DNA from: Luteirhabdus pelagi
GTDB lineage: Bacteria; Bacteroidota; Bacteroidia; Flavobacteriales; Flavobacteriaceae
Assembly: GCF_016827595.1 (NCBI RefSeq)
Contig: NZ_JAECMS010000002.1
Span: 248,001-312,000 of the forward strand
Length of the DNA: 64,000 nt
Direction: 5' to 3'
Each line of letters starts with the position of its first letter. Positions within the stretch are counted from its first letter, which is position 1. The translations under genes were made by a program, and so were the position numbers. Of this stretch, positions 23,970 to 32,069 are shown in pieces. The notes below the pieces were generated by a model. The model ran no database searches and was not told where the DNA came from. It worked only from the letters and a program-made list of their open reading frames with translations.

Positions 23970-24584
23970 ATGAAATTGAATAAAGCCATTCTTCTGATCA
24001 TCTTGGTCCTCTTAATCGACCAGATTTCAAAGATTTATATCAAGACCCATTTTGTATTGGGTGAGGAAGTCGAGGTGTTCGAATGGTTCCGTATCCTATT
24101 TGTGGAAAATGAAGGAATGGCCTGGGGCGCCAAAATCCCTGGGGAATACGGGAAATTAGCATTAACATTGTTCAGACTTGTAGCCATAGTGGGAATCGGG
24201 TATTGGCTTTGGGATTCCGTCCGAAAGCATGCTTCTCGCGTACTAATTGTTTCTATTGCCTTGATTTTCGCAGGTGCGATGGGGAATATCATCGATTCCG
24301 TTTTTTACGGAATTATCTTTGAGGACAGCCATCACCAAGTAGCGGCAATGTTCCCAGAAGCTGGTGGTTATGGCACGCTGTTTCACGGGAAGGTAGTCGA
24401 CATGCTCTATTTTCCGCTGTGGAAAGGCTATTTGCCTGAATGGATTCCTTTTTGGGGAGGCGATTATTTCACTTTCTTTGAACCCGTCTTCAATATTGCG
24501 GATACTTCCATAAGCGTAGGGGTAGCATTATTGCTTATCTTCCACAAGAAGGCATTCCCTAGCGATAAAAAATCTGAAGACTAA
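23970..24584 (+). CDS. lspA: Lipoprotein signal peptidase (signal peptidase II)
   Basis: A 204-residue inner-membrane aspartyl protease that cleaves prolipoproteins before the lipid-modified Cys. Motifs match: DQISKIYIKTHF at the first helix, FVENEGMAWG, GAMGNIIDSVFYG with the first catalytic Asp, GKVVDMLYF, and FNIADTSISVGV with the second. Four membrane segments are visible. It is slightly longer than E. coli LspA, because of an insert around HHQVAAMFPEAGGYG, as in other Bacteroidota. It serves the lipoproteins seen elsewhere in the window. Its TAA overlaps the stop of the converging receiver gene by 4 bp. Confidence 0.96.
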   Translation: MKLNKAILLIILVLLIDQISKIYIKTHFVLGEEVEVFEWFRILFVENEGMAWGAKIPGEYGKLALTLFRLVAIVGIGYWLWDSVRKHASRVLIVSIALIFAGAMGNIIDSVFYGIIFEDSHHQVAAMFPEAGGYGTLFHGKVVDMLYFPLWKGYLPEWIPFWGGDYFTFFEPVFNIADTSISVGVALLLIFHKKAFPSDKKSED

Positions 24585-26952: not shown

Positions 26953-27513
26953 CTAAAAATGAAAGACTTTCTCGGGTGTGATGCAACTATGCAAGGGAAC
27001 ATCGGTACTCTCAAAGAAGATATTTTTCTCTGGCGGAAAAAAAGAAAGCCCTATAAATCTAGCATCCCTTTTACACTTTGAAAGGAAGCGGTCGTAGAAA
27101 CCTTTTCCATAACCAATGCGATTGCCTTGCTCATCGTAGGCCAACAATGGAACAAAAATGACATCCAGTTGTTCTGCCGGTACCTCTATACCTGAAACCG
27201 GTTCTGGAATGCCCATATCGGTTATGGCAATTTTGGTGTTATCCTGAAGTAGGATATGGTCCATCTCACGATCTTCAAAACGTGCTTTCGGCACGACAAT
27301 ACTCTTATCCTTTCCGTGAAGAATCTGAAGCAAGTATTCGGTATTGACTTCTTTTTTGTTTGAAATGGGAAGAAATATATGATAATACTCCTTTTCCCAA
27401 AGGGGAAGGGTTAGCGCTTGGTTCGCTATTTTCAAGCTCAGTTCTTCTACTTCGTCATCGCTTAACGAGGCTCTTCGCATACGGTATTCTTTCCGAAGTG
27501 TCCGCTTATCCAT
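26953..27513 (-). CDS. 5-formyltetrahydrofolate cyclo-ligase
   Basis: A 186-residue enzyme that uses ATP to convert 5-formyl-THF to 5,10-methenyl-THF. The start is the ATG at 27513 (MDKRTLRKEYRMRR), with the basic N-terminal pattern of the family. The late motif NRIGYGKGFYDRFLSKC carries the ATP/phosphate loop. The ligand pocket has PLLAYDEQG. The start overlaps the end of the AspA-like gene by 8 bp. It is the last gene of the rimK cluster, apparently a housekeeping rider. Confidence 0.93.
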   Translation of the reverse strand: MDKRTLRKEYRMRRASLSDDEVEELSLKIANQALTLPLWEKEYYHIFLPISNKKEVNTEYLLQILHGKDKSIVVPKARFEDREMDHILLQDNTKIAITDMGIPEPVSGIEVPAEQLDVIFVPLLAYDEQGNRIGYGKGFYDRFLSKCKRDARFIGLSFFPPEKNIFFESTDVPLHSCITPEKVFHF

Positions 27514-28483
27514 TTGTCGCAGTTTCAGTTGAAATATGAAAAATCGCATCACCTTGGTGAACAATTGGTGCCTGATTCACATTTATAATATACCCTTCAT
27601 TGGGTGCGATAACTTTATGGCGCATCGTGCCATACGGATCGGTGATGGTAGCCAAAAACTCTCCCTTTTCTACATGCTTGTTACAAGGTATCTTCACGTG
27701 AAGCAACCCGCTTCGCTGCGCACGGATCCATCGACTTTTTTCAATTACGACAGTTTCCGAAGTAGTTTCAGGCACTTCAAACTTACGTCGTAACATATCC
27801 AAATGATTCAAGATGCGCATGACACCCTCAACGCCGTGGGTTACAATGTCTTTATGACTTTCCAGTGACTTCCCACCTTCGTATAATAACACTGGAATGT
27901 TCTTTTGGTCGCAGGTGGCGCGATAGGAGTTTTTGATAAGGGATGAATAGACCGTGAACGGACTGTTGAAGATTTTTGCCAATTCCAAGGAACCTTCATC
28001 GTTCGGCTTTACCCGAACCTGGGGCGCATTAAAGCGACTAGCACCTCCCGTATGGAAATCGAGGCAATAGTCGGCATGCGGCAAAATACTTTTGGTGAAA
28101 TGATAGGCTACGCGACTCGCTAAAGAGCCCGTTTTGGTTCCTGGAAACTTACGGTTCAGGTCCTTTCCATCAGGAAATTCGCGTTGGGTATTTAAAAATC
28201 CGAATATGTTAAGAATAGGGATGCAGATGATGGTTCCAATCTTGGGTCGATTGATTTTCTTGGCAATCAGTTGTCGAACGATTTCAACCCCATTAATTTC
28301 ATCGCCATGAATCCCAGCCGTGATTAAAACTGTAGGTCCGGGCTTTTTGGCTCTTTCAATAATTACAGGAATTTCAACCTTGGTCGATGTATACAGCTTC
28401 GCAATGCTGAAATCGATTACCTTGCGTTCGCCAGGACCGATTTTTTGGTCGAGTATGATTAAATCTTCCTGTTCCGAAGCCAT
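27506..28483 (-). CDS. Succinylglutamate desuccinylase/aspartoacylase family protein
   Basis: A 325-residue zinc-dependent M14-like carboxypeptidase/amidohydrolase. TAGIHGDEINGVEIV gives the zinc-binding His and Glu (GxHGxE), and the third ligand is in YCLDFHTGG. The C-terminal third carries a barrel-sandwich-like domain with VHQGDAIFHIS at the end. The AstE/AspA fold removes acyl groups from amino acids or peptides. It lies 3 bp after rimK, so it may trim or remove the glutamate or acyl tags made by it (inference). Not a typical AstE, as there is no arginine succinyltransferase pathway next to it. Confidence 0.9.
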   Translation of the reverse strand: MASEQEDLIILDQKIGPGERKVIDFSIAKLYTSTKVEIPVIIERAKKPGPTVLITAGIHGDEINGVEIVRQLIAKKINRPKIGTIICIPILNIFGFLNTQREFPDGKDLNRKFPGTKTGSLASRVAYHFTKSILPHADYCLDFHTGGASRFNAPQVRVKPNDEGSLELAKIFNSPFTVYSSLIKNSYRATCDQKNIPVLLYEGGKSLESHKDIVTHGVEGVMRILNHLDMLRRKFEVPETTSETVVIEKSRWIRAQRSGLLHVKIPCNKHVEKGEFLATITDPYGTMRHKVIAPNEGYIINVNQAPIVHQGDAIFHISTETATNG

Positions 28484-28486
28484 ATG

Positions 28487-29359
28487 CTAAACGTTTTTCT
28501 CGATATACTTTATTATAATGGTTGCAATATCCTTCCCAGTTGCCTTTTCGATACCTTCCAAACCTGGTGAAGAATTCACTTCCAACACCAATGGGCCGCG
28601 GTCGCTTTGTAACATATCCACTCCCGCAATATCCAAGCCTAAAGCCTTGGCGGCTTTAATGGCTGCTATTTCCTCTTCATCGGAAAGCTGAATAACGGTT
28701 GCCGAACCACCCCTATGTAAATTCGAACGGAATTCACCATCTACTGCTTGTCGCTTCATCGCTCCGACGACATGACCATTAACAACGAACGCCCTAATAT
28801 CTGCTCCTTTTGCTTCTTTTATATACTCTTGCACAATAACGCGGGCTTGCAGATTATTAAAGGCTTCGATTACCGATTCGGCTGCCTTTTTGGTTTCTGC
28901 TAAAATAACCCCTAAACCTTGCGTCCCTTCCAATAATTTGATGATGACTGGTGCACCACCTGCCTGCTCCACGATTTCCTTTACGTTTCGGGAATAATTT
29001 GTGAAAACAGTTTTTGGCATTCCAAGACCGGACCTGGATAAAATCTGGAGGCTTCGCAATTTATCACGAGAACGGACCAATGCCATCGATTCGGTGGTAG
29101 AAAACACTCGCATCATTTCAAACTGACGAACTACTGCCGTTCCATAAAAGGTTACCGAGGCACCGATTCTCGGAATAACGGCATCGGTCGGACTCAGCAC
29201 TTTTCCCCTGTAATAGATACATGGGTTTTTCTTTTCGATAACAATATCGCATTTGGTATGGTTAATAACTTCCACCTCATGCTTGCGCTTCTTGGCAGCT
29301 TCAACCAGTCGTTTGGTTGAATATAGATTGGCATTTGCCGATAATATCTTGATGTTCAT
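28487..29359 (-). CDS. rimK: RimK family ATP-grasp L-glutamate ligase (copy 1)
   Basis: A 290-residue ATP-grasp ligase. It carries the RimK motifs [33 protein letters not shown] for ATP binding, [30 protein letters not shown] and [14 protein letters not shown]. coli RimK adds glutamates to the C-terminus of ribosomal protein S6; related enzymes make poly-glutamate or modify other proteins. The ATG at 29359 overlaps the stop of the RimK-linked protease gene by 1 base (TAATG), so they are coupled. A second RimK copy lies two genes upstream. Confidence 0.95.
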
Positions 29360-29796
29360 TATGCTTGTTTGCTTTTCATTTTATAGGATAGGTTCGTTCG
29401 GTTGCTATCCACCACAAATTTTTTGGTCAAGAAGTTTCGACCCAAAAGTACGGGGAATTTCATTGCTTTTCGATCGGTTAAGGTCAAGAAAATAGGATAG
29501 GTAGTATCGAACAATACGATTTCAGTTTCAATACGATACCGTTGTTCTACCTGTCCATTGCTACTTTTTACTTCCTTTTGATCAAAGTTTTCAAAAACAA
29601 ATTCCTTTTGATGGTATAGTGGATGTTCGGGATCGAGGAAGCGACATTTCAGCAAATCATCTTCAATTTCCATGTCGTGACAATGAATAGAGGAGGTAAA
29701 AGCGCCCGTATCGACTTTAATGTCAATATTTTCCAATCCTAATACAGGAAAATCGGCTTTATCTATACGTCCGATTACAGGTTTTTTGTCTTTCAT
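29359..29796 (-). CDS. RimK-linked retropepsin-like protease (RimB type)
   Basis: A 145-residue protein of the ATP-dependent zinc protease / RimB family, with a retropepsin-like fold. [29 protein letters not shown] (shown by its ends: [11 protein letters not shown] and [13 protein letters not shown]) holds the catalytic [13 protein letters not shown] is the second core motif. The start is the ATG at 29796 ([10 protein letters not shown]). In Pseudomonas RimB works with RimA and RimK on ribosomal protein S6 (family knowledge). Here it lies between two RimK genes, a good sign that it acts on their product. Confidence 0.92.
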
Positions 29797-29858
29797 ATTT
29801 CTTAAGATAGCAAAATCGGTTGCCAACCGGAAAAAGTAGAAATGTGTTTAGGAAAACT

Positions 29859-30740
29859 TTAAGACCCACGCGGTTTGTTGCGTTCAATATAGCCAATAAT
29901 ACTTTTGGAAACACTTCTTCCCGTAGTGGTTTCAATACCCTCCAAACCGGGAGTAGAATTTACTTCCAAAACCAATGGGCCACGTTCCGATTGCAATATA
30001 TCTACACCGCATACTCCGAGTTTTAACGCCTTGGCCGCTCGAATAGCACTTCGTTCTTCATCGTGGCTTAGTTTAATTTCTGAAGAAGAACCACCGCGAT
30101 GGAGATTAGACCGAAAATCGCCATCCTTGCTCTGCCGTTTCATCGCTGCTACCACAACACCATCTACAACAATAGCTCGTATATCGCAGCCGTTGCTTTC
30201 TTCAATATATTCCTGTATCACGAAACGCTGTCGACCTGTCAATAAAGTTTCGATAATGGGTAACGCTTTTTCGCGACTTTCAGCTAGAATGACACCGTGG
30301 CCGTGCGTACCCTCCAATACTTTTATGATGATAGGGCCAGACGGAAAGCGCTTTAATTGTAATTCATAATCGCTATAATCTACCAATGCCGTATTCGGAA
30401 CCGCAACGTTTGCCGCCGCCAATACCTGAAACGAATGCCATTTATCGCGCGATTGCAAAATGCCATGTGCCTTTACCGTCGAAAACACGTCCATACTTTG
30501 AAAATGCCTAACGACATTAGCGCCATAAAATGTATGGGAAGCTCCAATTCTAGGGATAACCGCATGAAGATCGTCCACTACCTCATCCCGAAAATATAAC
30601 TTTGGTTCCCCCTGCTCGACTGCTAGGGTGCAATGTTGCGGATCTAGCACTTCCATATTGTGGTTTCGCGCTTCCCCAGCTTTCAGCAAGCTTTGGGTTG
30701 AGTATAAGGAATAGCCCCGCGAGAGAATGGCGATGTTCAT
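29859..30740 (-). CDS. RimK family ATP-grasp L-glutamate ligase (copy 2)
   Basis: A 293-residue paralog of the downstream RimK. All core motifs remain: [64 protein letters not shown] and LEVNSTPGLEGIE. The ATP-loop differs (GTHGHG against GTQGLG), so it may use another acceptor or nucleotide mode. The gene is first in the minus-strand run rimK2 - protease - rimK1 - AspA-like - folate ligase. Its -7 box may be TACATTCG at 30759-30766 (minus). Two intact ligases in one run suggest distinct targets and not mere redundancy. Confidence 0.93.
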   Translation of the reverse strand: MNIAILSRGYSLYSTQSLLKAGEARNHNMEVLDPQHCTLAVEQGEPKLYFRDEVVDDLHAVIPRIGASHTFYGANVVRHFQSMDVFSTVKAHGILQSRDKWHSFQVLAAANVAVPNTALVDYSDYELQLKRFPSGPIIIKVLEGTHGHGVILAESREKALPIIETLLTGRQRFVIQEYIEESNGCDIRAIVVDGVVVAAMKRQSKDGDFRSNLHRGGSSSEIKLSHDEERSAIRAAKALKLGVCGVDILQSERGPLVLEVNSTPGLEGIETTTGRSVSKSIIGYIERNKPRGS

Positions 30741-30810: not shown

Positions 30811-31542
30811 TTATTTTTCACTATCCCTTGGAAGAAATAATGAAATAGAATGGAATACTGCTTCATCTAAATGCCCCATTTTGGATCTATCTTCTGTAAT
30901 CAGATGAATGTGAAGGTAAGAGTCGTGATGGGTAAATATGCCTTGATGTTCGGTTGAAAAAAAGCCGAGCATCGTTACTTTTTTATTCTGAAGTTTATAG
31001 TTTGTTTGCCCTTGATGTGCTTCGGCAGGTGACGATACGGTGGTTCCCTTCGGAAGATTTTGGACGTGTATGGTTGCTGAAGTAACCGTTCCCTTCACCA
31101 AAAAGGGAAAAGGTCTATCGTTATCTTGGGAAACTTGATCGATAAATTTCTCTAATTGTTGAAGTGTTTGAACCGTGTCGGGAATTTTTACTTCTTCCCA
31201 ATCGGAAATATACGAATGCACAAAAAAGGGCGCGGAAGCTTCTTCTGAAATTGAAACGGTCATGGTTGAATCTGATGTTACCTTGGAAACATAGGTTTCA
31301 CTATCCAAGATCATGATCTCGCCCCTTAAATAACTCGACGGTCCCAGTCCGTACAATCCCTTTTTAGGTTGAAGTGTATCGAAGGCAATCGCAGGTCCCA
31401 ATTTGCCTTTCCACATCACATCTTTCATGGCAGCGGTAGCAACGACCTCATAGGAACTTTTTTCGGCACCTTCTTTTTCTTTTGAATTACATGCCGATAG
31501 TAAAAAAAATATCAGACAACCATAAGTGAGTATATATTTCAT
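30811..31542 (-). CDS. Acetolactate decarboxylase-like lipoprotein
   Basis: A 243-residue protein with a lipoprotein signal, MKYILTYGCLIFFLLSAC, lipidated on C18. The body follows the acetolactate decarboxylase (BudA/AlsD) family: YGLGPSSYLRGEIMILD near 64-80 with E75, a QTNYKLQNKKVTMLGFFS strand near 179-196, and the metal site H211-I-H213 then H224 in MGHLDE. The H-x-H-x10-H spacing is that of the zinc site in the cytoplasmic enzymes. Known BudA proteins turn acetolactate into acetoin in the cytoplasm; this one would lie outside the inner membrane, so its substrate is likely different or it has a new role (inference). A GNAT gene lies 2 bp upstream. Confidence 0.85.
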   Translation of the reverse strand: MKYILTYGCLIFFLLSACNSKEKEGAEKSSYEVVATAAMKDVMWKGKLGPAIAFDTLQPKKGLYGLGPSSYLRGEIMILDSETYVSKVTSDSTMTVSISEEASAPFFVHSYISDWEEVKIPDTVQTLQQLEKFIDQVSQDNDRPFPFLVKGTVTSATIHVQNLPKGTTVSSPAEAHQGQTNYKLQNKKVTMLGFFSTEHQGIFTHHDSYLHIHLITEDRSKMGHLDEAVFHSISLFLPRDSEK

Positions 31543-31544
31543 CT

Positions 31545-32069
31545 TTATTCTGTTGCACGGTTTAGTTGAAACAAAAGTAATTCTTTGTCATCATTCGGAA
31601 GGTAAACAAGTCCCTTCAAAGTGAAACCAAGTTTTCCGAGCAAGCGTTGCGAGGCCCTGTTTTCTTCTGACGTATAAGCGTTCAAAACCGCAATATTGAA
31701 ATTTGTAAAAGCAGCTTGTTTTAATCTATTGGCAGCTTCATACGCATAGCCTTTTCCTTCAAATTGAGGTAAAAAGGCATACCCAATATCGACGCCTTCA
31801 ACACCTTCCCGATCGTACAGGCCACAAGTTCCTATTTTAACGCCATCGGTTTTTCGAATCACAGTATTATTGGCATAGCCCAGGCGCTTCAATTGTGGAA
31901 GCATTCGTTCTTCGATATAGCGTTTCGCGTCGTCTTCACTTTTAAGATTTCGATCTCCTATATACTGTAACCATTTAGGTGAATTCAATAGTTCAAAGAT
32001 AAAGCTGGCGTCTTCTGTTGAAGTAGGTCGAAGCCATAAACGTTCGGTTTCAAATGTTTTGTAAGTCAT
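31545..32069 (-). CDS. GNAT N-acetyltransferase (RimJ type)
   Basis: A 174-residue GNAT protein of the RimJ/RimL/Acetyltransf_3 kind. FETERLWLRPTSTEDASFIFELLNS opens the fold (shown in part as TERLWLRPTSTEDA), then GTCGLYDREGVEGVDIGYAF, the acetyl-CoA P-loop QFEGKGYAYEAA, and ENRASQRLLGKLGF. The substrate is unknown: N-termini of proteins or small amines. The acetolactate decarboxylase-like gene follows after 2 bp. Confidence 0.92.
   Translation of the reverse strand: MTYKTFETERLWLRPTSTEDASFIFELLNSPKWLQYIGDRNLKSEDDAKRYIEERMLPQLKRLGYANNTVIRKTDGVKIGTCGLYDREGVEGVDIGYAFLPQFEGKGYAYEAANRLKQAAFTNFNIAVLNAYTSEENRASQRLLGKLGFTLKGLVYLPNDDKELLLFQLNRATE

Follow-up and report, generated by a model that had tools for sequence, protein, structure and literature searches.

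A Luteirhabdus pelagi lipoprotein with the acetolactate decarboxylase fold belongs to a distinct clade and may bind metal at the cell envelope

Acetolactate decarboxylase (ALDC; AlsD, BudA or AldB) is represented by the Pfam family PF03306, the equivalog model TIGR01252 and the Brevibacillus brevis structure 4bt2. Some ALDCs are exported, and the Brevibacillus brevis enzyme is a known exoenzyme. Glu65, Arg145 and Glu253 have functional roles in ALDC, which we take here to be those assigned in the work on 4bt2. A more distant relative is the human zinc protein C11orf54/PTD012 (DUF1907, PDB 1xcr), whose fold is distantly related and holds a zinc site of three His, and which was recently reported to be a 3-dehydro-L-gulonate decarboxylase (PMC12435205). 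The accessory proteins of CusCBA efflux systems (CusF-like, DUF3347 and HYC_CC_PP) are the third point of comparison. We compared with these systems a lipoprotein gene located in a 64,000-nucleotide stretch of the L. pelagi genome, referred to as the window.

The gene lies at 30811..31542 on the minus strand, starts with ATG and codes for 243 amino acids, exactly the reading frame of the original prediction, which had assigned an ALDC fold to its product. This assignment holds well: the protein matches PF03306 at 66.9 bits (E 2e-18), above the gathering cut-off of 25, and phmmer matches it to 4bt2 at E 2e-10. Structure prediction, the check proposed at the time, agrees. An AlphaFold2 model of moderate confidence (pLDDT 77.6, pTM 0.75, 11-sequence input) gave only ALDC or ALDC-like proteins among its first 14 Foldseek matches (best E 1.5e-12, TM 0.67), followed by PTD012 (E 3e-6) and then by PPC-type proteins. 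PTD012 differs in belonging to another Pfam family and reaches a TM of only 0.4-0.5 to the window protein, in which Pfam reported PF03306 alone and no DUF1907 match. Family and fold thus place the window protein in the ALDC superfamily. No other protein of the host genome matches PF03306, and a PHROGs search with the window protein returned no match. Against the ALDC equivalog TIGR01252, in contrast, it scores 56.4 bits, far below the cut-off of 180.65, which is passed by two Arg/Gly/Ala-type relatives that were scanned (L002 and L004, with 192.6 and 195.2 bits).

Active-site residues were mapped on a MAFFT alignment of the window protein, 4bt2 and Bacteroidota relatives. The H-x-H-x10-H metal site described originally is indeed present as H211, H213 and H224. 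The predicted metal ligands His211 and His213 (30904..30912, minus strand) align with His194 and His196 of 4bt2 and the predicted ligand His224 (30871..30873, minus strand) with His207, and all three are invariant in the relatives that we term H-type. Of the 'RGE' motif (residues 73-75; 31318..31326, minus strand), also read earlier as an ALDC feature, only the Glu survives comparison with 4bt2 and the relatives: Glu75 is the equivalent of ALDC Glu65 and is invariant among 55 H-type sequences wherever the region is present, whereas Arg73 is variable (T, A, K or R) and is not the catalytic Arg of ALDC. The position of that residue, Arg145, is occupied by His159 (31066..31068, minus strand), the hallmark of the clade, found in all 31 of the first relatives and later in 55 of 55 sequences. 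A pairwise phmmer alignment with 4bt2 instead sets Q161, two residues on, opposite Arg145; neither alignment has an arginine there. ALDC Thr58 is replaced by Pro68 (P or A across relatives). The window protein has 19 residues beyond the third His, where 46 are needed for Glu253, and the corresponding tail is mostly 15-20 residues long in H-type proteins versus about 42-49 in full-length Arg/Gly/Ala-type ones, so Glu253 cannot exist in most H-type proteins. The claim of an intact ALDC active site must therefore be given up: loss of the active-site Arg, named beforehand as evidence against it, is what the alignment revealed, and the tail with Glu253 is missing as well.

H-type proteins have also gained residues. 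His199 and the T204-H205-H206-D207 loop (30922..30948, minus strand) are near-invariant in the clade, and the two-residue insert H205-H206 in this loop before H211 is absent from Arg/Gly/Ala-type ALDC; further gains are His199 itself and, often, His176. The residues H159, G193, S196, T204, H211, H213, G223, H224 and D226 are invariant over the 55 H-type sequences. Judged from the sequences, the polar ones besides the ligands (S196, T204 and D226) resemble a catalytic pocket, so that an enzyme is possible. Such a protein would be a metal-dependent member of the superfamily that works outside the cytoplasm on another substrate, for instance as a decarboxylase of beta-keto or sugar acids, or as an esterase or lyase, with His159 as a new catalytic residue. 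This proposal agrees with the invariance or near-invariance of Glu75, the three His, Ser196, Thr204 and Asp226 and with the decarboxylase activity reported for the fold relative C11orf54 (PMC12435205), but the loss of Arg145 takes away the residue expected to hold the carboxylate of the substrate.

A maximum-likelihood tree of 64 sequences (48 H-type and 16 Arg/Gly/Ala-type, midpoint-rooted for drawing only) separates the two types with 100/100 support and long branches. The H-type is one clade, distinct from Arg/Gly/Ala-type ALDC. Within it, the sister group of the window's own group (H1) is H2, which we defined by the motif Y-A-[LI]-G-A; this definition omits two loci typed as H1, L116 and L117, of which L116 carries L075, a protein that falls within the sister branch of the tree. 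The distribution of H1 is patchy and its gene neighbours are not fixed, as would be expected of a degenerate, functionless protein kept by chance, but nine residues are invariant in 55 divergent sequences and the reading frames are intact in nearly all H-type members. Conservation thus largely refutes this explanation, which we consider extremely improbable. One genome (G178) carries an H-type protein together with the other type, which argues that the two are not interchangeable and hence against ALDC activity of the H-type. The Arg loss alone is not decisive in this respect, because the Gly/Ala-type proteins L002 and L004 still pass TIGR01252. What is decisive against ALDC is the Arg loss, the tail loss and the failed TIGR01252 cut-off jointly.

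Several members of the family deserve mention in their own right. L002-L007 are Flavobacteriaceae lipoproteins that score 200-229 bits with PF03306 and carry Gly or Ala in place of Arg145. L153, on an Acinetobacter plasmid (NZ_CP024012.1), is a distant H-type relative outside Bacteroidota; it adjoins an ammonium transporter and transposases, and its annotation is acetolactate decarboxylase, with a GO term for acetoin synthesis. L019 and L073 (context loci L050 and L114) are H-type domains fused to an FmdE domain, both directly downstream of an ArsP-type permease.

The protein carries a signal peptide, MKYILTYGCLIFFLLSA (residues 1-17; 31492..31542, minus strand), with an L-S-A-C lipobox kept in relatives. 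Its N-terminus, MKYILTYGCLIFFLLSAC, has a clear lipobox (LLSA followed by C18), and Cys18 (31489..31491, minus strand) is predicted to be lipidated; the window also contains a lipoprotein signal peptidase (signal peptidase II) gene at 23970-24584 (317.7 bits, cut-off 200). The lipoprotein signal noted at the outset is thus well founded, and a lipobox occurs in most relatives, some H-type members having an ordinary signal peptide instead. It had been argued from this location that the substrate is not acetolactate made by the cell itself. That this is probably so is supported by the replaced Arg145, the missing tail, the failed TIGR01252 cut-off and a host that has no acetolactate synthase. The argument from location is only partly right, since the Arg/Gly/Ala-type ALDCs of Bacteroidota are often lipoproteins, with a lipobox even in Arg-type members (L082, L085, L086 and L088), and export alone is therefore no evidence against ALDC activity.

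The host genome is 99.92% complete. It has no match to catabolic acetolactate synthase (TIGR02418) and none above cut-off to the biosynthetic enzyme (TIGR00118), MenD being its only TPP_enzyme_N protein. Ketol-acid reductoisomerase is likewise not found above cut-off, and the only IlvC-like match is adenosylhomocysteinase. Lack of both enzymes predicts branched-chain amino acid auxotrophy. An acetoin pathway in the host, which we also considered, is ruled out by the lack of acetolactate synthase. More widely, acetolactate synthase was found above cut-off in 28 of the 36 genomes tested, and the other eight, one of them 76% complete, are all H-type carriers; it is missing from 8 of the 31 H-type genomes searched. 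A true ALDC might still use acetolactate present in the medium or released by neighbouring cells, as an exoenzyme like that of Brevibacillus could, and the PF03306 score above cut-off, the kept metal triad and Glu65 equivalent, and the Arg145 kept in other Bacteroidota lipoproteins of the family would suit it. With the Arg145-to-His change and the missing Glu253 tail clade-wide, the failed equivalog and a host without acetolactate synthase, we regard it as very unlikely.

The immediate surroundings of the gene offer few clues to function. A GNAT acetyltransferase gene (31545..32069, minus strand) lies directly upstream with a 2-bp gap, an order also found in a same-genus relative with 88% identity to the window protein (L031), and the two genes likely share a transcript. 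The acetyltransferase has no known functional link with the ALDC-fold lipoprotein, and a promoter and terminator scan around the gene gave matches no commoner than in shuffled sequence. On the other side is a cluster of RimK, RimB-like retropepsin, RimK and AstE/AspA-like genes (27506-30740, minus strand), in which the RimB-like protein is below its cut-offs and the second RimK (28487-29359) alone scores above the equivalog cut-off for S6 glutamate ligase. This cluster adjoins the ALDC-fold gene only in the window and in L031.

None of the metal genes tested occurs in the 64 kb of the window, and the gene is not in a copper-efflux operon. No conserved operon partner emerged for H1 in about 37 loci either; the neighbours are small and varied (YdeI/OmdA, META, sulphur transporters, GMC oxidoreductase and amidohydrolase). 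Metal genes are near 5 of the 37 H1 loci, which is not significant (Fisher p 0.15). A Cu-ATPase is 10-11 bp away in L039 and L040, and a cation-efflux gene is 28 bp away in L061, with MerT nearby. Some H-type contexts would suit an enzyme with a changed substrate, since L067 joins a sialate O-acetylesterase (SASA) domain to the H-type domain in a single 520-aa reading frame and a GMC oxidoreductase gene is 5 bp away from L058. However, H1 has no conserved metabolic neighbours, and metal efflux rather than carbon metabolism is the one context that recurs within the clade. We see this enzyme as the main rival reading, with the probabilities leaning somewhat against it.

The metal context is seen most clearly in H2, which is linked to copper operons. 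H2 genes are found in copper/silver efflux (cus-type) gene clusters in 12 of 16 loci, whereas none of 20 Arg/Gly/Ala-type loci has any of these metal genes closer than about 6 kb (Fisher p 1.5e-6; 0.0018 for all H-type; these values and that for H1 ignore shared ancestry), and the H2 targets share 31-86% mutual identity (median 43%). Their operon companions are CusA, CusC, CusB, DUF3347 and Cu-ATPase. For example, the order in L126 is CusA, CusC, DUF3347, H2, Cu-ATPase, PepSY and CusB, where CusA passes TIGR00914, Cu-ATPase passes TIGR01511, and the H2 gene starts 6 bp after DUF3347 and overlaps Cu-ATPase by 4 bp. H2 genes thus hold the operon position of the CusCBA accessory proteins, although no sequence relation was found between these and the H-type, and the window gene lies outside such operons. 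A copper or heavy-metal role for H2 is likely. In 201 Flavobacteriaceae, the co-occurrence of H-type proteins with Cu-ATPase or CusA was uninformative, the latter two having matches in 200 and 164 of them, and in the literature we found no paper tying acetolactate decarboxylase to copper efflux, lipoproteins or FmdE.

Very divergent ALDC-fold copies, annotated as hypothetical, are present on two Hymenobacter plasmids (L154 and L155) directly after an efflux adaptor gene; in one plasmid record the copy precedes an annotated RND pump. Both islands have copper-binding proteins, and one has a multicopper oxidase. These copies keep the Glu and the three His and have lost H159 and the THH loop, so that a role in copper operons does not depend on the extra His.

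We favour the reading that the window protein is a metal-binding accessory protein of the envelope derived from the ALDC fold, because the metal site is what these proteins share at their core, the parts that handle the carboxylate are gone, and metal efflux is the only recurrent link; with copper as the best candidate metal, we give this reading about an even chance of being correct. As a mechanism, a lipid-anchored, secreted protein would keep the three-His/Glu metal site of the fold, having lost the Arg and the C-terminal Glu that presumably handle the acetolactate carboxylate and gained His159 and usually the His-rich loop. It may bind a transition metal at the envelope, for which copper is the best candidate, and the metal-bound protein would support efflux or tolerance as an accessory facing the periplasm or the surface. 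We infer both the binding and the identity of the metal, and by analogy the window protein may share the copper role of H2. Several observations are at odds with a metal-binding accessory role: no tested metal gene occurs in the 64 kb of the window, H1 as a group is rarely near them, the Hymenobacter copies in copper surroundings do without H159 and the THH loop, and the pocket-like S196, T204 and D226 leave an enzyme possible. More tentatively, and with a little less confidence, we suggest that the H-type may constitute a new class of ALDC-fold proteins that serve copper or heavy-metal tolerance at the envelope, liable to be misnamed ALDC, of which the window protein would be a stand-alone member.

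The clade matches a Pfam family named acetolactate decarboxylase, and the evidence from sequence, host and operons indicates that for all its members this name is probably a misnomer. Should the link with copper prove true, the fold of a carbon-metabolism enzyme would have been reused in metal efflux, and the Cus operons of Bacteroidota would have a component undescribed in the literature that we searched.
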